Under the pieces are notes generated by a model that saw nothing but the letters and a program-made list of their open reading frames with translations, was not told the origin of the DNA and did no database searches. A stretch of DNA of 51,712 nucleotides from an uncultured Planctomycetaceae bacterium (GTDB lineage Bacteria; Planctomycetota; Planctomycetia; Planctomycetales; Planctomycetaceae), in NCBI GenBank assembly GCA_913031625.1, contig CAJWGB010000013.1, positions 1-51,712 on the forward strand, given 5' to 3'. Made by a program: the position numbers and the translations under genes. Of the stretch, positions 1-50,249 are shown piece after piece (positions within the stretch are counted from its first letter, which is position 1; each line of letters opens with the position of its first letter).

Positions 1-2826
1 GCGCGTGCCAAGCACATCGAAGTTCAGCTACTGGGTGATGAACATGGAAATCTGGTTCACCTCTTTGAACGTGACTGCTCCGTTCAGAGACGACACCAGA
101 AAGTGATTGAGCTTGCTCCGGCACCAGACCTCGCTGAAGAGCTGCGTCAGGGAATCCTCGATGCTGCAGTTAAGATCGGACAGCAGGCCGGGTACAGCTG
201 TGCCGGGACCGTGGAGTTCCTCGTTGACGCTGACGAGCAGAAATTCTACTTCATTGAAGTGAACCCACGTATTCAGGTCGAACATACGGTCACAGAAGAA
301 GTGACTGGAATCGACATCGTCAAGGCACAGATCCTTGTCGCTCAGGGTCACCTGCTTACACACGACGCCATCGATATCCCATCGCAGGATTCCATCGCGG
401 TCAACGGATTCGCAATGCAGTGTCGCGTGACAACAGAAGATCCGGAAAACAACTTCATGCCTGACTATGGTCGAGTGACGCACTATCGCTCTGCCAGCGG
501 CATGGGCATCCGCCTCGATGCGGGAAGTGCGTTTTCCGGAGCAATCGTCAATCCGTTCTATGATTCCCTGCTGACAAAGGTTTCGGCAAGAGGACGCAGC
601 TTCGCCGGTTCCATCAGCATTATGGAACGAGCTCTGCGGGAGTTCCGAATTCGTGGCGTTAAGTCGAACATTCCATTCCTGCTGAAAACGCTCGCCCACG
701 AAACATTCCGCGCAGGCGACTGCACAACCCGTTTCATTGATGAAACACCGGAACTGTTCGAATTCGATCCGCGTAAGAACCGGGCCACCAAGGTGCTCAC
801 GTATCTTGCGGAGACCATGGTGAATGGCAACGAGTTGGTGAAAGATCGGCCAGTTGCTCAGAGACGCGAACCGGCACCGCTTCCGGCCGTTGATCAGGAG
901 CAGGCAATTCCAAAAGGCTCGCGTGACAAATTCAAGGAGCTCGGAGCTGAGAAGTTTGGTCAGTGGATCCGTGAACAGGATCGACTGATGATCACCGACA
1001 CCACATTCCGTGATGCGCATCAGTCACTGCTGGCAACTCGAATGCGGACCTACGACCTTCTGCAGATCAGTGACGCCTACGCACACAACTGCAGTGACCT
1101 GTTCAGTCTTGAGATGTGGGGCGGTGCAACATTCGACACATCCATGCGGTTTCTCAAGGAATGCCCCTGGCAGCGTCTCGCGGATATGCGGGAACGAATT
1201 CCGAACATCCTGACGCAGATGCTCCTTCGCGCGTCCAATGCCGTTGGGTACACAAACTACCCGGACAACATTGTGACCAGCTTCGTGAAAGAAGCGGCCG
1301 ACTGTGGGATGGATCTGTTCCGCGTGTTTGACGCTCTGAACTGGGTGCCCAACATGAAGGTTGCCATGGATGCTGTCCTGGAAACAGGCATGCTCTGTGA
1401 GGCGAGTATCTGCTACAGCGGCGACCTGACCAATCCGTCGCGCACCAAATACGACCTCAAGTATTACGTCGAGCTTGCTCGCGAGCTCGAGAAGATGGGC
1501 GCGCATATCCTGGCCATCAAAGACATGGCGGGGCTCTGCAAACCTGCGGCAGCCGTCAAGCTGATTAAGACACTGCGGGAAGAAGTCGGCATCCCCGTCC
1601 ACTTCCACACGCACGACACTGCCGGAATTCAGGCAGCCTCCATCCTGGAAGGCAGCAAAGTCGGTCTGGACATTGCCGATGCCGCAATGGCTCCGATGTC
1701 GGGTGGCACGTCGCAGCCCAACCTCAACACGGTTGTTGAGATGCTGCGATTCGGCGACCGCGATACACAATTGAATTCCGAATCACTCGACGAAGTGGCG
1801 GAGTACTGGCGTGCGACTCGTGAGTTCTACACGCCGTTCGAGAGCCAGGTGCTTCCTGCCACCGCAGATCTCTATCACCATGAAATGCCGGGCGGTCAGT
1901 ACACCAACCTGTTTCAACAGGCCCGCGCCCTCGGGCTTGCCGATCGCTGGGCAGAGGTCTGCCGCGTGTACGCCAGCGTGAATCAGCTCTTTGGTGATAT
2001 CGTTAAGGTAACACCAACGAGTAAGGCCGTGGGAGACATGGCTCTATTCATGGTGGCCAATGACCTGACCGCTCAGGATGTTCTCAACACTGACCGCGAC
2101 ATCGCATTCCCAGCCAGTGTGATTGATCTCATCGGTGGTGGAATGGGCCAGCCTCCGGGAGGCTTTCCGGAAGACGTTAAGAAACGCGTCCTTTTGGGCA
2201 AAGAAGAATTCACCGGTCGCCCGGGGGAGACACTGCCGCCCGCCGACTTTGCGGCAGCTCGCGAAAAAGTCAAAGGCATGGTCAAACGCGACCCGCTCGA
2301 ACGAGAAGTCGTTCAGTGGCTGTTGTACGAACGAGTCTTCGAAGACTTCGCAGAGCATCAGCTCAATTACGGTGATGTGAGCATCTTGCCAACGCCCAAC
2401 TTCCTCTATGGACTCGAACCTGGCGAAGAAATCGCGGTCGACATCGAAGAGGGTAAGACTCTGATCATCAAGTTCCAGACCATCGGCAATGCTCATGCTG
2501 ACGGTACTCGAACGGTTTTCTTTGAACTCAACGGCCAGCCTCGCGAAGTGACCGTTGTGGACAAGAGTGTTGAGACAAACGCCGTGAAAGCCGTGAAGGC
2601 CGACGCATCTAATTCAGCACATGTGGGATCCACAATGCCGGGCATGGTGGTCGCCGTTGCTGTGAAAGCGGGCGACAAGGTGAAGAAAGGCCAGAAACTG
2701 CTGACACTGGAAGCCATGAAGATGGAGACCATGATCAACGCAGAACAGGACGGTGAGGTGACAGACGTACTTGTGGCCTCTGGCAGCCAGGTCGAAACCG
2801 GCGATCTGCTGATGGTGATCGAGTAG
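1..2826 (+). CDS. pyc: Pyruvate carboxylase, 3' part (5' end outside window)
   Basis: Biotin enzyme that carboxylates pyruvate to oxaloacetate (anaplerosis, cytoplasm). The frame is open from base 1, so the N-terminal ~200 or so residues are missing; 941 codons remain. In order: end of the biotin carboxylase domain with EVNPRIQVEH (about nt 256-290); the carboxyltransferase TIM barrel starting near ITDTTFRDAHQS (about nt 990) with AIKDMAG and HFHTHDT; and a C-terminal biotinyl domain with LEAMKMET, biotin-accepting lysine at 2719-2721. Biotin carboxylase, carboxyltransferase and biotin carrier on one chain is the pyruvate carboxylase layout and excludes acetyl-CoA carboxylase. The domains look intact. 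The next gene begins 94 bp downstream, same strand, with no obvious functional link. Confidence 0.96.
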   Translation, partial: ARAKHIEVQLLGDEHGNLVHLFERDCSVQRRHQKVIELAPAPDLAEELRQGILDAAVKIGQQAGYSCAGTVEFLVDADEQKFYFIEVNPRIQVEHTVTEEVTGIDIVKAQILVAQGHLLTHDAIDIPSQDSIAVNGFAMQCRVTTEDPENNFMPDYGRVTHYRSASGMGIRLDAGSAFSGAIVNPFYDSLLTKVSARGRSFAGSISIMERALREFRIRGVKSNIPFLLKTLAHETFRAGDCTTRFIDETPELFEFDPRKNRATKVLTYLAETMVNGNELVKDRPVAQRREPAPLPAVDQEQAIPKGSRDKFKELGAEKFGQWIREQDRLMITDTTFRDAHQSLLATRMRTYDLLQISDAYAHNCSDLFSLEMWGGATFDTSMRFLKECPWQRLADMRERIPNILTQMLLRASNAVGYTNYPDNIVTSFVKEAADCGMDLFRVFDALNWVPNMKVAMDAVLETGMLCEASICYSGDLTNPSRTKYDLKYYVELARELEKMGAHILAIKDMAGLCKPAAAVKLIKTLREEVGIPVHFHTHDTAGIQAASILEGSKVGLDIADAAMAPMSGGTSQPNLNTVVEMLRFGDRDTQLNSESLDEVAEYWRATREFYTPFESQVLPATADLYHHEMPGGQYTNLFQQARALGLADRWAEVCRVYASVNQLFGDIVKVTPTSKAVGDMALFMVANDLTAQDVLNTDRDIAFPASVIDLIGGGMGQPPGGFPEDVKKRVLLGKEEFTGRPGETLPPADFAAAREKVKGMVKRDPLEREVVQWLLYERVFEDFAEHQLNYGDVSILPTPNFLYGLEPGEEIAVDIEEGKTLIIKFQTIGNAHADGTRTVFFELNGQPREVTVVDKSVETNAVKAVKADASNSAHVGSTMPGMVVAVAVKAGDKVKKGQKLLTLEAMKMETMINAEQDGEVTDVLVASGSQVETGDLLMVIE

Positions 2827-4326: not shown

Positions 4327-5088
4327 TTAGACATTCAGGAGTTCGCCAAGCAGATTTGATGTGGGATGGGGGTGCCCCTTGTACTGGCGATAGCCCTCTC
4401 CGTAATCGGCATCAATTTCACTTCCGCGTTCTGCGCTCCAGCGTCGGGTCGCATCAATATACTCGTCAATGCCATGTTGCCGCTGGAGCCACTCTCGCTG
4501 GCTCGCGTGACAGGCCAGGGCTTCCAGCTTGGTTTCGAATTCCGCAGACACATCGATAATAAAATCCACCGGGTGGCGATTGCCAAAGTGATCTGTTCCT
4601 TCAACGGCGTCTACATAGTAGAGCCATGGGATTTTCGTCAGCGGCGCTGACGGGTCCCATTGCCTCGTACGATAGTTGGGAACCGAAGCATTAAAGCAGG
4701 CATCACGCACGAGCATACTGGTCATCTCGTGATCGTGCATATAGTCCACCGGCGGGGCGGTCAGGATCAGATCAGGAGCTGTGCGTCTCAGATATTCGGT
4801 TACTCGCCTGCGACTGTCATTGTCGAAACAGATCGAAAGGTCCCGAAACTCGAGACACGTATACTCTGCACGCAGAATCTCTGCTGCTGAAGACGCCTCA
4901 GCACGGCGAATCGCCGCAATCTCATCCTGTGACACCTCAGCACTGCCACAATCCCCGGGGGTCATCGTCGCCACTGATATTCTGCACCCCAGCTTTGCCA
5001 GCCGCAGCAGGGTTCCGGCACACTGAATTTCAATGTCATCCGGGTGAGCATGAATCGCGAGGACATGGATATCGGAAGGGTCAGGCAT
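4327..5088 (-). CDS. PIG-L / LmbE family deacetylase
   Basis: 253 residues from the ATG at 5088. It has the zinc-binding motif of PIG-L/LmbE N-acetylglucosaminyl deacetylases, HAHPDDIE, near the N-terminus, and a later MHDHEMTS supplying the HxxH part. TPGDCGSAE and the C-terminal GYRQYKGHPH also fit. Members remove acetyl groups from GlcNAc-containing small molecules or glycoconjugates; the substrate here cannot be read from the sequence. The frame stays open upstream to 5178 from an alternative start codon, but the 5088 start puts the HPDD motif at the usual place and leaves a divergent promoter region before the next gene. Confidence 0.9.
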   Translation of the reverse strand: MPDPSDIHVLAIHAHPDDIEIQCAGTLLRLAKLGCRISVATMTPGDCGSAEVSQDEIAAIRRAEASSAAEILRAEYTCLEFRDLSICFDNDSRRRVTEYLRRTAPDLILTAPPVDYMHDHEMTSMLVRDACFNASVPNYRTRQWDPSAPLTKIPWLYYVDAVEGTDHFGNRHPVDFIIDVSAEFETKLEALACHASQREWLQRQHGIDEYIDATRRWSAERGSEIDADYGEGYRQYKGHPHPTSNLLGELLNV

Positions 5089-5225
5089 CAGTCTGGGCTT
5101 CTGAAGACGTAGGCTGAAAGACGATCTCTTGTAAGACTCGTGCAACGGGTTTGCAACCGACAACTCCTGTTCACCCACCCAACAGATCCAGGTATCATAA
5201 ACACCTTCTCCTGCCTGAAGCGTTC

Positions 5226-37811: not shown

Positions 37812-40616
37812 TCAGTGAGCCTCAAGCCAGTTGATACCGGTTCCCATCTCCACTGCAATGGGAACACTCATGGGAAGTGCCGACTTCATTGCCGCTTCAA
37901 TGACGGGTTTTACTTCTTCTTCTTCAGTCTTCAGCATATCAAACACAATTTCGTCGTGCACCGTCAACAGCATCTTTGTTTTGAAGCCACCGTCCTTAAG
38001 AGCATGATGCACTTTGATCATCGCCAGTTTCAGCATGTCTGCAGCGGTGCCCTGAATGGGAGTATTCATGGCCAGCCTTTCCGCTGCATTGGCCAGCGTT
38101 CGACTGCGAGAATTGATATCCCTGAGGTACCTTCGTCGGCCTGACTGGGTCTGAACGAAGCCGTTCTCCTTCGCAGCCGCAATGGTGTCATCAATCCACG
38201 CCTGCACTCCCGGGTACTCTGCAAAGTAGCCTTCAATCAGCTCATTCGCCTCTTTGCGAGGAATGTTGAGTCGCTGCTGCAGCCCGAACGCAGAAATGCC
38301 ATAGATAATCCCAAAGTTAACCATCTTGGCCCTGTCACGCATTTCACGGGTCACGTCACCGAAATCAACACCATACACCTTAGACGCCGTCATCCGATGA
38401 ATATCAAGGTTATCCTCATAAGCCTTCAACATGGACGGGTCCTGACTTAACTCGGCCATGATCCGCAGTTCGATCTGAGAGTAGTCAGCAGCCAGCAGGA
38501 GATGATCATCGTCACGCGCAACAAATGCCGCCCGAATTTCACGGCCGCGTTCCTTACGGACGGGAATGGTCTGCAGGTTGGGATCGTTACTCTGCATACG
38601 GCCGGTGGCCGTCCAGGTCTGACTGTAATGCGTATGCAGCCGCCCCGTTTTTTCATTCACGTGTGACGGAAGCTGGTCCACATACACAGACTTCAACTTG
38701 ACTGCGTTTCGGTAGTCGAGCACATCAGCAACGATCTGATGTCGTCCTGCCATGCGTTGCAGTTCGGTTTCTCGAGTGGACCACTGACCGGTTGCTGTCT
38801 TCTTTGGATTCTTTTCCAGTTCCAGCTCTTCATACAGTACCACTCCGAGCTGTTTGGGAGAGTCGATGTTGAATTCGTGACCGGCGGCCGCGTAAATGCT
38901 CTTCTCTAATTGAGCGATATCCGCGGTGAGCTGTTCTGAGTACTTCTCAAGTGCCGCCGTATCCAGCCGAACGCCTTCGTACTCCATGTCCACCAGCACG
39001 GGAATAAGCGGGCATTCGACTTCATAGCAAACGGAACTGACCCCCTGTTTCTCGATGTCCGGTTCAATGACCTTTGCCACCTGCAGGGTGATGTCGGCAT
39101 CTTCGGCGGCGTACTCTGCGACAGTCTCGACCGGCACATCCTTCATGCTGATCTGTTCTTCGCCACGTTTTCCGATCAGGTCACTGGTCGGAATCGGCTT
39201 GTAGGCAAGATAGAGCTCGGCAAGGTAGTCGAGCCCGTGCCGCATTTCAGGCTCTTTCATGGAGTGCGCGAGCATCGTGTCGAGCAACTCTCCCTGAGTG
39301 TCGATGCCATGCCATTTGAGCAATGTGACATCGTACTTGAGATTGTGACCAATTTTCCGAATGCCCGCGTCTTCAAAGACCGGCCGAAACTCATTCAGCA
39401 CGTCCCGGGCCGACGCCTCTTCATCCCCACAGACAACGTAGTAACCGGAGTGTGCTTCAAAGCTGAATGCAATCCCCAGCGGAAGTGCCTGTCTTGGATC
39501 GAGGCCCGTCGTTTCTGTATCGAAACAGACTTCCTTCTGTTTCTTCAGCAGTTTCAGTAACGCTGCTCGCTCTTCTGCCGTCCTTACAATCTGATAGTCG
39601 TGTTTTACATCCCTGATTGATTTGACCTGAACTTCATCAAGATCATCAAACAGCGTCGCCTGAATCTGAGCTTCGCGTTTCTCGCGAAGCTTTGCGGTCC
39701 GGCTGGCAGATGATGAAAAGCTCTTGCCGAACATCTTCTTACCAAGCGTATCGAATTCCAGTTCCTCAAAGAGTGTCTTCAAGGCATCATCATTTTGTGC
39801 TGCCAGTCGAAATGACTCGAGATCAAGCTCATGAGGAACGTCCAGCTGAATGGTCACGAGCTGTTTGGAGAGGATCGCCAACTCAGCATTGTCCTCAATT
39901 CTCTCCTTTTGCTTCCCCTTCAGTTCATGAGTATTCGCCAGCAGGTTTTCGACACTGCCGTACTTTGCCATCAACTTCTGCGCTGTCTTCGGACCAATGC
40001 CTGGCACTCCCGGAATGTTGTCGCTGGAGTCCCCCATCAAGCCGAGAATGTCAATCACCTGGTCGACTCGCTCTATCTCCCATTGAGCAAGCACCTCCGG
40101 AACACCGAGAGTTTCATACGCGGCTCCTTTGCGACCGGGCCGCAGAATATGCACGGTATCGGTGACCAGCTGATGGTAGTCCTTATCGGGTGTCACCATT
40201 AACGTTTCGTATCCTTCGGCGTCAGCCTGATGAGCAAGTGTGCCAATAATGTCATCCGCCTCGTACCCAGGCATGCGAATCACAGTGATATTGAACGCTT
40301 CGAGCAGCCGGTCAATGTAGGGCAGGGCATTGCCAATATCCTCAGGCAGTGCGTCTCGCTGAGCTTTGTACTCAGGAAAAACACGGTGCCTCTCTGTCGG
40401 CTCTGACGTATCGAATGCAGCCGCAATATGAGTCGGCTTTTCTTTTCTGATGATGTCCAGAATTGTATTCGTCAGGCCGAAAACCCCTGAAGTGCAGAGT
40501 CCGTCTGAGGTGTATCTGGGACTGCGAATCAAGGCAAAGTGAGCACGGTAGACCAAAGCCATCCCGTCGAGCAGCAGGAGTTTCTTAGGGGCGGCAAACA
40601 AGTCAGCCTGAGGCAT
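37812..40616 (-). CDS. polA: DNA polymerase I
   Basis: 934 residues with all three activities. 5' nuclease (1-~290): LLLDGMALVYRAHFAL, GYEADDIIGTLA, DKDYHQLV, GDSSDNIPGVPGIGPKTA. 3'-5' proofreading domain (~340-530): FDTETTGL (first Asp at residue 366), HNLKYDVTLL and YAAEDADITLQ, so exonuclease residues appear intact. Polymerase (~560-934): DYSQIELRIMAELS, the O-helix RDRAKMVNFGIIYGISAFG and LTVHDEIVFD. It acts in Okazaki fragment processing and repair. Adjacent to the Aas gene but without evident functional link. The 333 bp between its start and the next gene (40617-40949) hold no recognised gene. Confidence 0.98.
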   Translation of the reverse strand: MPQADLFAAPKKLLLLDGMALVYRAHFALIRSPRYTSDGLCTSGVFGLTNTILDIIRKEKPTHIAAAFDTSEPTERHRVFPEYKAQRDALPEDIGNALPYIDRLLEAFNITVIRMPGYEADDIIGTLAHQADAEGYETLMVTPDKDYHQLVTDTVHILRPGRKGAAYETLGVPEVLAQWEIERVDQVIDILGLMGDSSDNIPGVPGIGPKTAQKLMAKYGSVENLLANTHELKGKQKERIEDNAELAILSKQLVTIQLDVPHELDLESFRLAAQNDDALKTLFEELEFDTLGKKMFGKSFSSSASRTAKLREKREAQIQATLFDDLDEVQVKSIRDVKHDYQIVRTAEERAALLKLLKKQKEVCFDTETTGLDPRQALPLGIAFSFEAHSGYYVVCGDEEASARDVLNEFRPVFEDAGIRKIGHNLKYDVTLLKWHGIDTQGELLDTMLAHSMKEPEMRHGLDYLAELYLAYKPIPTSDLIGKRGEEQISMKDVPVETVAEYAAEDADITLQVAKVIEPDIEKQGVSSVCYEVECPLIPVLVDMEYEGVRLDTAALEKYSEQLTADIAQLEKSIYAAAGHEFNIDSPKQLGVVLYEELELEKNPKKTATGQWSTRETELQRMAGRHQIVADVLDYRNAVKLKSVYVDQLPSHVNEKTGRLHTHYSQTWTATGRMQSNDPNLQTIPVRKERGREIRAAFVARDDDHLLLAADYSQIELRIMAELSQDPSMLKAYEDNLDIHRMTASKVYGVDFGDVTREMRDRAKMVNFGIIYGISAFGLQQRLNIPRKEANELIEGYFAEYPGVQAWIDDTIAAAKENGFVQTQSGRRRYLRDINSRSRTLANAAERLAMNTPIQGTAADMLKLAMIKVHHALKDGGFKTKMLLTVHDEIVFDMLKTEEEEVKPVIEAAMKSALPMSVPIAVEMGTGINWLEAH

Positions 40617-45708: not shown

Positions 45709-46116
45709 ACAACTGTCCCCAACCACGTGCGGTAGTCAGTCACGGAGATTGAAGCATCACGACCCTGAGGCTTCGTCATAGGACATTGCGAGCAACATGG
45801 TAACTGGTTCTGGCAACGAGCAACCAGACCGTGAAATTCACCCGGCCGTTTCCTCGTCACAGTTCACAGAGTCCGTTTCGTCCAAACGACTTACGAAAAC
45901 GGATACTATTCCTTCAAGCGATCCCCAGCTCAGGTATGCAGCCATTCGCCGTTGTGAGTTCGGCGACTGCCAGAGGGTCCCATAATCCGCCTGAGTTTTC
46001 AGGGTGGTCAGCTGTCATACTCACAACTCGTTATGCGCCGCGTGGACTCGCAAACGAGAGATTGCCGATTATCATGTCGAGCCGGATTCCACCCTGTCCC
46101 TGTCACCATCCAGCCC

Positions 46117-46566
46117 ATGCGTGCCGTCGTTCAACGTGTCTCCAGCGCCTCCGTTACAGTGGAGGGACAAACTGTCGGCGCGATTCAGCACGGCTTTCTG
46201 ATCCTGCTGGGTGTTGAAGAAGAAGATACCCAAACGGATGTCGCCTGGATGGCGGCGAAAGTAACGGGACTCAGAGTATTCGAGGATGAAGACGGCAAGA
46301 TGAATCTCGACCTGAAACAGACAAAGGGAAATGCTCTGGTCGTGAGTCAATTTACGCTGCTTGGCGATTGCCGGAAGGGAAGACGTCCGAGCTTTGTGGC
46401 TGCCGCTCGCCCTGAGAAAGCCAGGAGTCTGTACGAGAGTTTTGTGGCAGAGTTAAAAGGGCAGGACATCCCAACGGAGACCGGTACATTTCAGGCGCAG
46501 ATGAATGTTTCTTTGGTAAATGACGGGCCAGTCACACTTCTGCTGGACAGTCAACGCAGGTTTTAG
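46117..46566 (+). CDS. dtd: D-aminoacyl-tRNA deacylase
   Basis: 149 residues. Removes D-amino acids (and glycine mischarged on tRNA-Ala) from tRNA. Canonical [17 protein letters not shown] start, SQFTLLGD motif with the catalytic-pocket Ser-Gln, [13 protein letters not shown] and the C-terminal NDGPVT cross-subunit motif. The ATG at 46117 gives the normal family length; an upstream ATG at 46033 would add residues unlike the family. It is followed 17 bp later by an FAD monooxygenase gene. Confidence 0.97.
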
Positions 46567-48044: not shown

Positions 48045-48118
48045 TGACACTGGAGAGACTCGAACTCTCAACATGCCGGGTTTAAACCAGCCGCCTCTGC
48101 CGATTGGGCTACAGTGCC
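48045..48118 (-). tRNA. tRNA with Leu anticodon UAA, class I scaffold
   Basis: Acceptor GGCACTG/CAGTGTC, anticodon stem GCTGG/CCGGC, loop TTTAAAC (anticodon UAA, codon UUA), T arm GAGAG-TTCGAGT-CTCTC, A73. The variable loop is only 5 nt (ATGTT), unlike normal class II tRNA-Leu. Member of a four-gene family sharing the D arm GCCCAA...GGCAGAGGC. Confidence 0.85.
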
Positions 48119-48129
48119 GAAATATCCAA

Positions 48130-48204
48130 TAGCATCGGGGAGGTTCGAACTCCCAACCTTCTGGTTCTAAGCCAGACGCCTCTACCATGTTGGGCTACGA
48201 TGCC
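48130..48204 (-). tRNA. tRNA with Leu anticodon UAG, class I scaffold
   Basis: Acceptor GGCATCG/CGATGCT, anticodon stem TCTGG/CCAGA perfect, loop CTTAGAA (anticodon UAG, codon CUA), 5-nt variable loop AGGTT, T arm GGGAG-TTCGAAC-CTCCC, A73. Same scaffold as the genes at 48045, 48228 and 48421. It is not an amber suppressor, which would need CUA. Confidence 0.87.
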
Positions 48205-48227
48205 GTTTATTCAGATTTCATTGCCAG

Positions 48228-48301
48228 TAGCACCGGGGAGATTCGAACTCCCAACCTCCTGGTCCTGAACCAGGCGCCTCTGCCAGTTGGGCTACGATGC
48301 C
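48228..48301 (-). tRNA. tRNA with Leu anticodon CAG, class I scaffold
   Basis: Acceptor GGCATCG/CGGTGCT, anticodon stem CCTGG/CCAGG perfect, loop TTCAGGA (anticodon CAG, codon CUG), variable loop AGGTT, T arm GGGAG-TTCGAAT-CTCCC, A73. All stems intact. Confidence 0.88.
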
Positions 48302-48330
48302 GTGTCAGACGAATCACGAGGATTCGTCAG

Positions 48331-48404
48331 CTCCTCCGACCGGATTTGAACCGGCGTCTCCACCTTGACAGGGTGGCGAGCACTCCAGACTGCTCCACGG
48401 AGGC
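48331..48404 (-). tRNA. tRNA-Asp(GTC), copy 1
   Basis: Anticodon stem CCACC/GGTGG with loop CTGTCAA (GUC), D stem GAGC/GCTC, T loop TTCAAAT, G73. The acceptor GCCTCCG/CGGAGGA has a G-A mismatch at 1-72; otherwise well formed. Confidence 0.85.
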
Positions 48405-48420
48405 GAATTTTCAGTGAATC

Positions 48421-48494
48421 TGACACCGGTGAGATTCGAACTCACACTCTCTCGACTTTGAATCGATCGCCTCTGCCGATTGGGCTACGGTGCC
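48421..48494 (-). tRNA. tRNA with Leu anticodon CAA, class I scaffold
   Basis: Acceptor GGCACCG/CGGTGTC, loop TTCAAAG (anticodon CAA, codon UUG), anticodon stem ATCGA/TCGAG with the outer pair open, variable loop AGAGT, T arm GTGAG-TTCGAAT-CTCAC, A73. Fourth member of the class I Leu set. Confidence 0.85.
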
Positions 48495-48517
48495 ATACAG
48501 AACTGTTCCCCCCGATA

Positions 48518-48592
48518 GCGTCCCGGCCGGATTTAAACCGGCGATCTCCACCGTGACAAGGTGGCAAGCACTCCGGGCTGCTCTGCGAGGGT
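48518..48592 (-). tRNA. tRNA-Asp(GTC), copy 2, degenerate acceptor
   Basis: Very similar to copy 1: anticodon stem CCACC/GGTGG, loop TTGTCAC (GUC), T arm GCCGG-TTTAAAT-CCGGC. Only the inner four acceptor pairs form; the outer three (ACC against ACG) are mismatched and position 73 is C, not G. Probably non-functional. Confidence 0.65.
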
Positions 48593-48623
48593 GTCTCTTG
48601 TGTCGGACGTATCTGATGACGAA

Positions 48624-48695
48624 TTGCCCCGCCAGGATTTGAACCCGGACAGGCAGACTCAAAATCTGCTGTGCTGCCAGTTACACCACAGGGCA
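48624..48695 (-). tRNA. tRNA-Gln(TTG)
   Basis: Acceptor TGCCCTG/CGGGGCA, D stem GTG/CAC, anticodon stem GCAGA/TCTGC perfect, loop TTTTGAG (UUG), T arm CCGGG-TTCAAAT-CCTGG. Position 73 is A where tRNA-Gln usually has G. Confidence 0.88.
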
Positions 48696-48713
48696 GGGGA
48701 ATCAGTTTGTAAG

Positions 48714-48784
48714 TGCGGACAGGGAGAGTCGAACTCCCGCCTCCGGTTTGGAAGACCAGCGTGCTGCCGTAACACTTCGCCCGC
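48714..48784 (-). tRNA. tRNA-Gly(TCC)
   Basis: Acceptor GCGGGCG/TGTCCGC, anticodon stem CTGGT/ACCGG, loop CTTCCAA (UCC), 4-nt variable loop, T arm GGGAG-TTCGACT-CTCCC. Well formed. Confidence 0.9.
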
Positions 48785-48878
48785 ATTTTCGAGATCGGTA
48801 GAGCGGATCGCTCAACGCTTAGCATCGAAACAATTCATTCATCAGTGGGAGTGCCCACCCGATTTCTGTTAGTGAAAG

Positions 48879-48959
48879 CGGAAGCGACAGGACTCGAACC
48901 CGCAACGGACAAGCCGCAGCTGTTTTCGAAACAGCCTCCTCAACATTCGGTTCACTTCC
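48879..48959 (-). tRNA. tRNA-Ser(CGA)
   Basis: 81-nt class II gene: acceptor GGAAGTG/CGCTTCC, anticodon stem GCTGT/ACAGC, loop TTCGAAA (CGA), long variable arm with CGG/CCG stem, T loop TTCGAGT, G73. The D arm is weak. Confidence 0.88.
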
Positions 48960-49052
48960 ACAGAGGCAGTCCAAAAATCGATCCGAGTTGTTCCGCAAAC
49001 ACGGCATGCTGCGTTTGAGATCTAAGACATCGGTTTCAGGACTGGTTCCCAG

Positions 49053-49127
49053 CTCCGAAGGCAGGAATCGAACCTGCGTCATAACGGTTAACAGCCGCCC
49101 GCCCGTACCAGCACAGGCCCCTTCGGA
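49053..49127 (-). tRNA. tRNA-Asn(GTT)
   Basis: Acceptor TCCGAAG/CTTCGGA perfect, anticodon stem GGCGG/CCGTT with two G-T pairs, loop CTGTTAA (GUU), T arm GCAGG-TTCGATT-CCTGC, G73. Confidence 0.9.
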
Positions 49128-49158
49128 AAATTGATTCATGGCAGTTGGTATCTGCCAA

Positions 49159-49241
49159 TGGCGCTGTACGGAATCGAACCGCTAAGCACGGAAGTGCACG
49201 TGGGTTACAGCCACGTCGAGATCCCACTCTCAAGCAACGCC
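49159..49241 (-). tRNA. tRNA-Tyr(GTA)
   Basis: 83-nt class II gene: acceptor GGCGTTG/CAGCGCC, D stem GAG/CTC, anticodon stem CGTGG/CCACG perfect, loop CTGTAAC (GUA), variable arm GCAC-TTCC-GTGC, T loop TTCGATT, A73. Confidence 0.92.
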
Positions 49242-49264
49242 GTTTCTGTTTCAGTTTGTTTGCA

Positions 49265-49293
49265 GGTAGTGGACTTCGCCAGAAGTCCCACTG
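49265..49293. repeat. Short interspersed hairpin repeat, copy 2
   Basis: AGTGGACTTC (49268-49277), loop GCCA, GAAGTCCCACT (49282-49292): a 10-bp stem with one bulge. Shares GGTAGTGGACTTCGCCAGA with the copy at 41294. Lies between two tRNA genes. Confidence 0.65.
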
Positions 49294-49308
49294 ACTGTTT
49301 CTTTGAAA

Positions 49309-49379
49309 AGCAGCTGACCAGAATCGAACTGGCGTCTTCACGATGGCAACGTGATGTCTTACCACTGGACCACAGCTGC
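49309..49379 (-). tRNA. tRNA-Gly(GCC)
   Basis: Acceptor GCAGCTG/CAGCTGC perfect, anticodon stem TCACG/CGTGA perfect, loop TTGCCAT (GCC), T loop TTCGATT, U73 as usual for Gly. Confidence 0.92.
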
Positions 49380-49438
49380 ATGGCTTCGACGGTCGGCTGA
49401 ATACTCTGGGTATCGGGCTGCGTGGCAGGTGGCCGAAG

Positions 49439-49491
49439 ACATCGGATTCTCATCCGATGTCCGCGCACTCGATCGGATGTTTCTTCCGATC
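49439..49491. other. Two strong hairpins in the largest gap of the tRNA array
   Basis: A 9-bp perfect inverted repeat ACATCGGAT-TCTC-ATCCGATGT (49439-49460) and a 7-bp one GATCGGA-TGTTTCT-TCCGATC (49471-49491). On the minus strand the first reads TCGGA-TGAGAA-TCCGA, a 5-bp stem with a GAG (Leu) anticodon-like loop of 6 nt. No T arm or acceptor could be paired, so no tRNA is called in the 152-bp gap 49380-49531. Confidence 0.4.
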
Positions 49492-49531
49492 CGCGATCGC
49501 GTCGAAGCGATATCAGGTTGTTATCTACGAT

Positions 49532-49603
49532 TCCGCCGAGAGGGATTCGAACCCTCATTTGCCCGGTTAAGAGCCGGATGCATTGCCATTCTGCCATCGA
49601 CGG
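49532..49603 (-). tRNA. tRNA-Lys(CTT)
   Basis: Acceptor CCGTCGA/TCGGCGG, D stem GCA/TGC, anticodon stem TCCGG/CCGGG, loop CTCTTAA (CUU), T arm GAGGG-TTCGAAT-CCCTC, A73. Confidence 0.9.
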
Positions 49604-49631
49604 GCGTCTGTCTGCTGCAGTCAAGCAGAGA

Positions 49632-49703
49632 TGGGCCCGGAGAGAATCGAACTCTCATTTGCTCCGATTAAAAGTCGGGTGCATTCCAGTCTGCCACAAG
49701 CCC
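49632..49703 (-). tRNA. tRNA-Lys(TTT)
   Basis: Acceptor GGGCTTG/CGGGCCC, anticodon stem CCCGA/TCGGA with the outer pair open, loop CTTTTAA (UUU), T arm GAGAG-TTCGATT-CTCTC, A73. Variable loop 6 nt. A sister of the CTT gene by D and T arms. Confidence 0.9.
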
Positions 49704-49768
49704 GTGAATCTGACCTTGGAGCCTGCGTTTAAGTCGATCGAGTAACATAGCGTTCTCCCTGTATTGAG

Positions 49769-49842
49769 TCGGAGTGACTGGGTTTGAATCTGCGGTCTCC
49801 CGGCTCCGAACCAGGCGCGATCCCCAGACTTCGCACACCCCT
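49769..49842 (-). tRNA. tRNA-Pro(CGG), diverged
   Basis: Acceptor AGGGGTG/CACTCCG (pair 1-72 open), anticodon loop TTCGGAG (CGG), stem CCTGG/CCGGG. The T stem GCAGA/CCAGT has two mismatches around the loop TTCAAAC. The body resembles bacterial tRNA-Pro. Confidence 0.75.
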
Positions 49843-49866
49843 GTTGAATTGATTGCGTTGTTTAAG

Positions 49867-49938
49867 TGCCCGGTCAGGGAATTGAACCCCGTCTACGACG
49901 TTCGAAGCGTCGCGTGCGATCCGGCACACTCACCGGGC
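49867..49938 (-). tRNA. tRNA-Arg(TCG)
   Basis: Acceptor GCCCGGT/ACCGGGC perfect, anticodon stem CGACG/CGTCG perfect, loop CTTCGAA (UCG), T arm CGGGG-TTCAATT-CCCTG, A73. Confidence 0.92.
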
Positions 49939-49951
49939 ATTTGTTTACGAG

Positions 49952-50023
49952 CAGCGCGGACCGGATTCGAACCGGCATCCACGAGGTGAAAGCCCGCGTG
50001 TCCTTCCAGTAGACGACCGCGCC
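49952..50023 (-). tRNA. tRNA-Glu(TTC)
   Basis: Acceptor GGCGCGG/CCGCGCT, D stem GTC/GAC, anticodon stem GCGGG/CTCGT, loop CTTTCAC (UUC), T arm GCCGG-TTCGAAT-CCGGT, G73. Confidence 0.9.
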
Positions 50024-50028
50024 GTAAG

Positions 50029-50097
50029 TAGCCGACTCAGGTAACGCTCCTGACTTCCCAGGCTTATGAGGCCCGGTTGGCCGCTTGACCGTCGGCG
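50029..50097 (-). tRNA. tRNA-like gene with CAU anticodon and atypical T loop
   Basis: Anticodon stem CGGGC/GCCTG with loop CTCATAA (CAU: Met, or Ile after lysidine). Acceptor CGCCGAC/GTCGGCT (pair 1-72 open). T stem TCAGG/CCTGA is perfect but its loop is AGCGTTA in place of TTCRANT, and the D arm is short. Which CAU type is unclear. Confidence 0.6.
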
Positions 50098-50119
50098 TAA
50101 ATAATTTCGTTCCTGAATG

Positions 50120-50191
50120 TGGGCCGGGAGGCGCTCGAATCCTCCTCTGCGGTGCTTCAAACCGCCGCTACACCATCTCAGCTACCGGCCC
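50120..50191 (-). tRNA. tRNA-Phe(GAA)
   Basis: Acceptor GGGCCGG/CCGGCCC perfect, D stem GCT/AGC, anticodon stem GCGGT/ACCGC perfect, loop TTGAAGC (GAA), T loop TTCGAGC with one T-stem mismatch, A73. First gene of the leftward array. Confidence 0.9.
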
Positions 50192-50201
50192 TTATCCGGT
50201 A

Positions 50202-50249
50202 CTGCACAAAAAAAGCCCGATGTCGCTGACACCGGGCTTCTTTGTGCAG
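50202..50249 (-). terminator. Terminator upstream of the tRNA array
   Basis: On the minus strand GCCCGGTGTC-AGC-GACATCGGGC (50215-50237) is followed by seven T. An outer repeat CTGCACAAA / TTTGTGCAG extends it. It sits 15-62 bp after the amidohydrolase-like fragment's stop, so it presumably ended that transcript. Confidence 0.9.

Follow-up and report, generated by a model that had tools for sequence, protein, structure and literature searches.

According to passages of a 2023 review, tRNA-Leu carries a long variable arm everywhere except in animal mitochondria (PMC9976931). The same passages give A73, the A15–U48 pair, G18G19 and A20a as essential for the Escherichia coli leucyl-tRNA synthetase (LeuRS), with leucylation uncorrelated with the sequence or folding of the variable arm (PMC9976931). 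Passages of a second paper describe, in many Planctomycetes, degenerate tRNA gene clusters that are often transferred and perhaps dispensable (PMC4807772). We analysed a stretch of 51,712 nucleotides (the window) from an uncultured Planctomycetaceae bacterium (contig CAJWGB010000013.1 of assembly GCA_913031625.1), in which four tRNA genes with leucine anticodons and very short variable regions lie within an array of tRNA genes. Judging from their sequences, the four are very probably true tRNA-Leu species, members of a class I subfamily with a short variable region, and the chromosomal cluster around them consists of supernumerary tRNA genes, some of them decayed. Certain leucine codons appear to be read by no other kind of tRNA in some bacteria; it is therefore most likely that the four are charged with leucine and cause no mistranslation.

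Four leucine tRNA genes without a long variable arm

All four genes were called as tRNA-Leu on the minus strand by ARAGORN, with the anticodons taa, tag, cag and caa, and matched the tRNA family RF00005 as complete cloverleaves with 53.2–61.2 bits, the gathering threshold being 29 (Table 1). They have in common the acceptor GGCAnnG and the D arm GCCCAA...GGYAGAGGC, the UAG gene having U for C at one base. The acceptor, anticodon and T stems are formed in each gene, with 5 nt between the anticodon stem and the T stem. The possibility that a variable arm had been overlooked was ruled out by the ARAGORN drawings and the alignment. None of the four therefore has the long arm that defines class II tRNA-Leu, while A73 and the A15–U48 pair of that class are present in all of them. 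Compensatory changes were seen in 18 of 21 predicted pairs among 30 class I Leu sequences, the window's four included.

An earlier note on this DNA had described four tRNAs with a common acceptor and D arm, a 5-nt variable loop, A73 and the anticodons UAA, UAG, CAG and CAA, and had considered that an arm might have been missed in folding. ARAGORN, RF00005 and the cloverleaves confirm the description, and no arm is hidden. The genes are real but required a correction in their placement: they lie on the minus strand, and the scaffold occurs beyond the array.

The sequences were also compared with covariance models for class II Leu (R1) and class I Leu (R2), as the earlier note had proposed. R2 places the window's four at 80.4–84.9 bits, above the 75 bits used to delimit the class I Leu subfamily, although all four are seeds of that model. 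No identified non-Leu tRNA exceeded 75 bits in the sets checked: in 100 viral loci all seven hits above this value were short-arm Leu, and the three hits below them were two Leu and one Lys (65.6 bits), and the best non-Leu hit in five actinobacteria scored 66.8 bits. R2 misses short-arm Leu genes with other D arms, for example a Mycobacterium UAA gene at 64.6 bits.

The LeuRS determinants A14, A15, U48, G18G19, A20a and A73 accompany the Leu anticodon in all four array genes. The same positions are conserved in five out of five class II tRNA-Leu genes found outside the array in the host genome (6.7 Mb in 444 contigs), which have the anticodons UAA, CAA, GAG, UAG and CAG and variable regions of 15–17 nt. 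A complete conventional set, the existence of which the earlier note had left as a question, is thus present; it covers the anticodons of the array Leu genes, which are therefore redundant in anticodon. Among 358 distinct short-arm Leu genes collected, many from loci selected by a D-arm pattern, 340 have all six determinants (198 of 212 viral genes, 125 of 129 from bacterial contigs, and 17 of 17 from genus and class relatives together with the window's four).

We infer that the four are expressed and charged. Their transcripts would acquire CCA, which is not encoded in the genes, after transcription. The host LeuRS would leucylate them through A73 and the corner between the D and T loops (A14, A15–U48, G18G19 and A20a), the long arm being unneeded, and the charged tRNAs would read UUA, CUA, CUG and UUG as leucine. 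The Ser and Tyr genes of such arrays retain the arm, as would be expected if seryl-tRNA synthetase (SerRS) and the bacterial tyrosyl-tRNA synthetase (TyrRS) need it. Here the claim of the earlier note held, since the array Tyr gene has a 15-nt variable region and the Ser-like gene is long-armed by inspection. The variable loop is described as important for SerRS binding in passages of a further paper (PMC11541572).

The short-arm scaffold in viruses and bacteria

A pattern made of the D arm plus a Leu-type anticodon matched at least 120 stretches of viral contigs, in which ARAGORN found 1,055 tRNAs. With relaxed spacing, the D-arm motif was present in 147 of the 211 Leu tRNAs, in none of 843 other tRNAs and in one gene called Stop through a shifted anticodon. 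Scanning for the D arm without the anticodon part added 22 viral loci. Across the 258 viral loci in total, the exact D arm gave 155 raw matches, 135 of them in ARAGORN tRNAs; these reduced to 127 distinct genes, 124 Leu and three unassigned. The other 20 matches comprised two that on inspection resemble whole Leu tRNAs missed by ARAGORN, one cut by the contig end, and the remainder interrupted or unrecognisable as tRNA; 12 of these 20 loci were scanned with Rfam, and three matches fell in long tRNA hits (L186, L199 and L201; loci and genomes carry our own L and G numbers). Most viral loci were picked by a pattern requiring a Leu anticodon, and the informative part of these counts is the absence of the D arm from neighbouring non-Leu tRNAs. 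Six anticodons, UAA, UAG, CAA, CAG, GAG and AAG, accompany the scaffold and represent both boxes of Leu codons; no tRNA of another isotype that was examined carries it.

The long hits show inserts of their own. Two phage tRNAs with the Leu D arm measure 121–126 nt by RF00005 (L199 at 244–364, minus strand, and L186 at 2747–2872) and have an extra stretch in the anticodon region, which in L199 contains a clear hairpin. In the viral contig IMGVR_UViG_3300032167_007747 (L201), tRNA genes at 4649–4765, 4862–4977 and 5076–5198 share an anticodon-arm insert of ∼44 nt and common sequence; in two of the three, the halves on either side of the insert are complementary. This contig has serine-recombinase-like genes, from a reading of its frames, and the insert motif had no match in any other viral contig. 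Small introns would be unexpected in tRNA genes of a bacterial mobile element.

An independent viral sample was drawn with a pattern of T arm plus CCA, which is blind to isotype and D arm. It comprised 116 loci with 703 distinct tRNAs; 45 unparsed genes, none Leu, Ser or Tyr, were dropped, so that all 82 Leu, 43 Ser and 22 Tyr genes were parsed. The variable region was 7 nt or shorter in 31 of the Leu genes, 8–9 nt in three and 10 nt or longer in 48. Short arms were found in none of the Ser genes and in one Tyr gene. The combination of A15–U48 and A73 was present in 28 of the 31 short Leu genes and 44 of the 48 long ones, compared with 71 of 511 other class I tRNAs (Fisher p=1.8e-19, short Leu vs other class I). 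In the first 100 loci of this sample R2 gave seven hits above 75 bits, all short-arm Leu, and many of the 31 short Leu genes are without the window's D arm. Short-arm tRNA-Leu genes on class II-like D arms were observed in the viral loci L242 (GCGG AATTGGCAT ACGC), L274, L299, L303 and L318; these sequences suggest that loss of the variable arm occurred repeatedly and independently.

Among bacterial genome contigs, the pattern of D arm plus Leu anticodon matched at least 119 stretches, with ∼66 Actinomycetota among the 80 titles listed. The scaffold is thus found both in phages and in other genomes, where the earlier note had proposed to look for it. ARAGORN called a matching gene in 116 of the 119 loci, giving 120 genes, all Leu, with variable regions of 5–7 nt. 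The number of tRNAs was three or fewer at 102 loci and higher at 14, cyanobacterial arrays included. Under a limit of E<=1e-20 and stricter filters, R2 found hits in 55 of 294 sampled Planctomycetota genomes (42 of 210 genera) and in 78 of 296 sampled Actinomycetota genomes. Of all the Planctomycetota hits, 12 were fetched and read; all 12 were Leu, nine UAA and three CAG.

To see how such genes are used, five actinobacterial genomes drawn from the bacterial scaffold loci were searched whole with R1 and R2, and six Planctomycetota genomes with R1. In Corynebacterium pelargi, Gordonia effusa, Mycobacterium sp. IS-3022 and Klenkia brasiliensis, the anticodons GAG, CAG and UAG are carried by class II genes and UAA and CAA by short-arm genes; the D arm of the Mycobacterium UAA gene is divergent and its variable region measures 7 nt. 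In Pseudarthrobacter albicanus the UAA gene is class I and the GAG, UAG and CAA genes are class II; a CAG gene was not found. In none of the five did the search, which scored 150 first-look candidates per genome, reveal a class II UAA gene, and it is possible but unlikely that one was missed. None was found either in the four planctomycetes with a solitary class I UAA gene (G325, G336, G302 and G282), where class II genes for other Leu anticodons are present. Short-arm tRNA-Leu(UAA) is therefore the only UUA reader found in these nine genomes, and the CAA gene is also short-armed in four of the five actinobacteria. To look for a class II UAA gene hidden among lower-scoring hits, 16 stretches were read, covering seven of the eleven R1-searched genomes, and none was a Leu gene: the long hits were all Ser or Tyr in three actinobacteria, and in the four planctomycetes were Ser or class II-shaped with Ala or Cys anticodons.

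Some of these other class II-shaped tRNAs are unusual. Leu-like class II bodies (R1 ∼68 bits, A73, variable region of 16–17 nt) carry the Ala anticodon UGC twice in G302 (L563 and L565) and the Pro anticodon UGG in G177 (L566). If charged according to their bodies, they would insert leucine at Ala and Pro codons, which makes them better candidates for mistranslation than the array's four. In G336 (L569), a tRNA with the Cys anticodon GCA has a 15-nt variable region and a class II shape.

The meaning of the codons was examined by aligning PolA of four planctomycetes and four actinobacteria to the PolA encoded in the window. Columns were used where at least five other sequences had a residue from other codons with at least 60% agreement. 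In three actinobacteria (G098, G099 and G100) all 42 scored codons, 5 TTA and 37 TTG, stand on leucine columns; the fourth (G102) had no qualifying column. In G325 and G336, both scored TTA codons (2/2) stand on leucine columns. Over the eight genomes, the window excluded, TTG fell on 48 Leu columns and one Phe column, and TTA on seven Leu columns. Organisms that seemingly read these codons only by class I tRNAs therefore use them as leucine.

The tRNA cluster and its counterparts in the genus

The four Leu genes belong to a dense minus-strand tRNA cluster at 48045–50191, in which 15 genes were called by ARAGORN and further degenerate ones are present (Table 1). A tRNA array unit is understood as a dense group of some 20 or more tRNA genes. 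With 15 ARAGORN genes and at least three degenerate ones in 2.1 kb, the cluster is dense enough, its count lying at the edge of that definition. It also has the marks of a degenerate tRNA gene cluster of Planctomycetes, with Leu genes redundant to the host set and several low-scoring members, and most likely the array lies inside a planctomycete tRNA cluster of the kind described in passages of PMC4807772.

Table 1. tRNA genes and tRNA-like stretches of the array (positions in the window; scores in bits)
Feature	Position	Strand	Evidence and remarks
Class I tRNA-Leu(UAA), codon UUA	48045..48118	-	ARAGORN; RF00005 53.2; R2 84.0 (R2 seed); variable region AUGUU; A73
Class I tRNA-Leu(UAG), codon CUA	48130..48204	-	ARAGORN; RF00005 61.2; R2 80.4 (R2 seed); variable region AGGUU; A73
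Class I tRNA-Leu(CAG), codon CUG	48228..48301	-	ARAGORN; RF00005 57.0; R2 84.9 (R2 seed); variable region AGGUU; A73
tRNA-Asp(GUC)	48331..48404	-	ARAGORN; RF00005 50.8
Class I tRNA-Leu(CAA), codon UUG	48421..48494	-	ARAGORN; RF00005 53.7; R2 83.9 (R2 seed); variable region AGAGU; A73; one A.G anticodon-stem mismatch
tRNA-Asp-like stretch	48522..48601	-	blastn 87–92% over 64–80 nt to stretches overlapping Asp genes in three relatives' arrays (L438, L440, L442); uncalled by ARAGORN and Rfam
tRNA-Gln(UUG)	48624..48695	-	ARAGORN; RF00005 55.9
tRNA-Gly(UCC)	48714..48784	-	ARAGORN; RF00005 54.5
tRNA-Ser-like gene, CGA and long variable arm by inspection	48879..48959	-	RF00005 32.5 (low); uncalled by ARAGORN
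tRNA-Asn(GUU), low score	49052..49127	-	ARAGORN; RF00005 34.6
tRNA-Tyr(GUA), class II, 15-nt variable region	49159..49241	-	ARAGORN
tRNA-Gly(GCC)	49309..49379	-	ARAGORN; RF00005 63.4
tRNA-Lys pair, CUU (49532–49603) and UUU (49632–49703)	49532..49703	-	ARAGORN; RF00005 63.1 and 54.3
Degenerate Pro-like tRNA, CGG by inspection	49769..49842	-	RF00005 25.6, below gathering
tRNA-Arg(UCG) (49867–49938) and tRNA-Glu(UUC) (49952–50023)	49867..50023	-	ARAGORN; RF00005 44.0 and 46.6
tRNA-Phe(GAA), first gene if the array is one minus-strand unit	50120..50191	-	ARAGORN; RF00005 49.1

Class I Leu genes were found with R2 in all eight genomes of the window's genus, its own included. Gene order is partly kept, with Gly(tcc)-Gln-Leu(caa)-Asp in the arrays of three members (G001, G002 and G007), and a Ser(cga) gene occupies the place of the Ser-like gene in several relatives. 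Matches between arrays by blastn were mostly single tRNA genes at 75–92% identity with few spacers aligned; three matches of 199–268 nt at 68–79% cover the Pro-like/Arg/Glu end including spacers. Against the stretches around the arrays of five relatives, all blastn matches lay inside 48127–50097 and none outside the array. A conserved chromosomal place in the genus was considered and rejected, as none of 14 window proteins, all from the left of the array, was matched by tblastn in the 13–20 kb around those five arrays.

The earlier note had suggested that a class I Leu family arose by duplication and anticodon change. The class I family is borne out and is far wider than the array; for the duplication, the identities differ among the four genes. 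The CAA and UAG genes are 84–86% and 80–88% identical, respectively, to the genes with the same anticodon in relatives. For the CAG gene, identity is 92% to the UAG gene of one relative and 88% to the window's own UAG gene, and the UAA gene has 62–66% identity to relatives' UAA genes, 72–77% to the other Leu genes of the array and 74–77% to relatives' UAG genes. From these comparisons, duplication with anticodon change within the array is plausible for CAG and UAA and less so for CAA and UAG.

Several further observations concern the cluster and its surroundings. The stretch 50026–50097, between the Glu and Phe genes, was uncalled as tRNA but is 87.5% identical to the same-side stretch of a relative's array (L440), and is perhaps a degenerate tRNA. 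A 16-nt inverted repeat, whose loop measures 3 nt and which is flanked on each side by an A/T run, lies at 50209–50243, 17 nt upstream of tRNA-Phe, the first array gene on the minus strand; it has a terminator-like shape and is absent from the terminator-scan list. The Rfam family RF04354 (Plastid-ycf2 5'UTR) matched array tRNAs in antisense, on the plus strand and below gathering, at 48130–48203, 48421–48493, 49531–49603 and 49631–49703, a hint that the family may itself include a tRNA in antisense.

We rejected the idea that a prophage surrounds the array: eight proteins encoded to its left were scanned and all belong to types usual for a chromosome (PolA, D-Tyr-tRNA deacylase, oxidoreductases and others), and the whole array had no megablast match in the phage collection. 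The D-Tyr-tRNA deacylase gene (PF02580, 202 bits) lies at 46033–46566, ∼1.5 kb from the array and on the opposite strand. The polA gene (37812–40616) is ∼7.4 kb from the array, and a class I tRNA-Leu(CAA) gene lies within ∼10 kb of polA in four actinobacteria (G098:C3, G099:C61, G100:C13 and G102:C12). As other genes flank the array in the genus relative G002, this proximity is likely a coincidence. Outside the array, the host genome also has an Arg(GCG) gene beside a second Cys(GCA) gene (G000:C63, L039), a second His(GUG) gene (G000:C97, L041) and Met/Pro calls around a low-scoring RF00005 hit (G000:C274, L042), which are perhaps pieces of other transferred tRNA sets.

Alternative readings and comparison with known systems

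Several points weigh against taking the four as leucine tRNAs in use. They are redundant with the host class II set and may be dispensable, and a class II UAA gene is present in array-bearing genomes (the host itself, G005 of the genus and G177). In the ARAGORN drawing, one A.G mismatch interrupts the anticodon stem of the CAA gene, and the cluster includes decayed members, namely the Ser-like, Asn and Pro-like genes (Table 1). The search for an array promoter gave one plus-strand site, compared with 0.8 on average in shuffled sequences, and none above chance. In addition, the planctomycete LeuRS is assumed to follow the E. coli determinants, and the nine genomes relying on short-arm UAA were selected for having a class I Leu gene.

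The earlier note had offered charging with another amino acid as an alternative, by which the four would mistranslate leucine codons. The absence of the textbook class II arm would fit this, but the LeuRS determinants are complete in all four. The scaffold occurs with Leu anticodons of both boxes and with no other isotype examined, which Leu identity alone explains simply, and in bacteria with TTA and TTG on leucine columns no other kind of tRNA was found to read UUA (often also UUG). Mistranslating tRNAs were accordingly rejected on the determinants, the Leu-only D arm and the codon meaning, and we regard this alternative as unsupported and very improbable. Equally improbable is a local origin, in which a class I tRNA of another isotype was duplicated in the array and given four Leu anticodons. 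The acceptor and D arm shared by the four would be expected from such an event; however, that D arm is in no non-Leu tRNA examined, relatives have counterparts of the CAA and UAG genes with matching anticodons, and the scaffold spans phyla and phages. The cluster might instead be a decaying remnant of horizontally acquired tRNA genes with the four Leu genes silent or functionless, which we consider unlikely though a serious possibility. The degenerate members of the array, the redundancy with the host tRNA-Leu set, the lack of a promoter above chance and the confinement of the matches to the array, in the stretches around five relatives' arrays, are all consistent with decay. The mostly single-gene matches between arrays, with partly kept gene order, speak against it, as do the Leu genes themselves, which are intact save for one mismatch and of a class retained in all eight genus members.

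The cluster may act as a reserve of tRNAs under translational stress or when those of the host are cleaved. Passages of the relevant papers describe an Anabaena tRNA operon that is normally repressed and is activated under translational stress (PMC10272220), and phage tRNAs that relieve tRNA-cutting defence (PMC11555353, PMC13096335). A more specific proposal is that the array tRNAs are decoys or substitutes directed against tRNA-cutting enzymes, with loss of the arm also removing the target of arm-cutters. Enzymes that cut the variable loop of tRNA-Tyr make such an advantage conceivable, and short-arm Leu genes are common in phages (31 of the 82 in the independent sample). Against it, no nuclease acting on the arm of bacterial tRNA-Leu turned up in the passages and terms searched in papers on tRNA-cutting defence, many bacteria have short-arm Leu simply as a solitary tRNA gene, and the armed Tyr and Ser-like genes are retained in the array; we therefore consider this proposal doubtful. 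A broader form, which we put forward as speculation and think only a little less doubtful, is that there are two classes of tRNA-Leu and that the arm was lost by selection and not by drift. Phages and mobile arrays would favour armless Leu tRNAs that keep LeuRS recognition and escape host enzymes that find or cut the arm, and in some lineages the only UUR-leucine tRNAs would have become armless.

Our preferred reading is that the four are class I leucine tRNAs. The counts of short-arm Leu genes in Planctomycetota, Actinomycetota and phages, together with the nine selected genomes in which such a gene is the only UUA reader found, contradict a universal long arm for leucine. In passages of one paper, the tRNA-Leu-2, -3 and -5 of M. 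tuberculosis are named as long-looped, which suggests that other tRNA-Leu of this species are without the long loop (PMC11541572). Among the papers listed by full-text searches of an open-licence library, no title or abstract start describes a class I tRNA-Leu subfamily, although specialists may know it from databases. Class I tRNA-Leu is a real, widespread and under-described kind, and there is strong support for bacterial tRNA-Leu existing in two structural classes, of which the armless one is apparently indispensable in some bacteria. Short-arm tRNA-Leu offers a natural experiment on what LeuRS requires and bears on annotation in which Leu is linked to a class II structure; it also makes the reason for armless tRNAs in phages testable with arm-cutting defence nucleases.

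Compared with the bacterial class II tRNA-Leu of the host (L011, L013, L014, L016 and L017), the array genes likewise have Leu anticodons, A14, A15–U48, G18G19, A20a, A73 and the D loop AAnnGGYAGA, but differ in the variable region (5 nt, not 15–17), in the D stem (GCC/GGC, not GCG/CGC or GTG/CAC) and in the acceptor GGCAnnG. The cluster resembles the degenerate clusters of Planctomycetes (PMC4807772) and the tRNA array units of mycobacteria (PMC5966550) in its extra tRNA genes, which are partly degraded in planctomycetes; the structure of tRNA-Leu is undiscussed in the passages of both papers. A tRNA-Leu(TAG) in a mycobacterial, probably phage-derived cluster likewise combines a Leu anticodon and a short variable loop within a transferred cluster, but the passage concerned treats this one gene in one sentence, without a wider family or a functional reading (PMC6582537). 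Human mitochondrial tRNA-Leu(UUR) is also without the long arm and, in the passages of the 2023 review, is recognised by LeuRS mainly through A73 and A14 (PMC9976931). Animal mitochondrial tRNA-Leu is nevertheless an independent loss, with a mitochondrial LeuRS and a floppy anticodon branch.

The nearest likenesses are in phages and Actinomycetota. Phage tRNA arrays share the array setting, and one phage-array Leu gene is 87.5% identical to the window's CAG gene over 64 nt, but these arrays lie in phage genomes whereas that of the window is chromosomal. In one of them, that of Gordonia phage Forza, ARAGORN called three class I Leu genes of 75–76 nt and one class II Leu(gag) gene; this array also has a tmRNA gene, and a gene for a Ro-like RNA binding protein is annotated next to it (L562 1–440). 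The short-arm tRNA-Leu (UAA and CAA) of Actinomycetota have, like the window's four, a Leu anticodon, a 5-nt variable region and mostly the same or a near-identical D arm. There they are the only readers found for their codon, whereas the window's four form a redundant set within an array.

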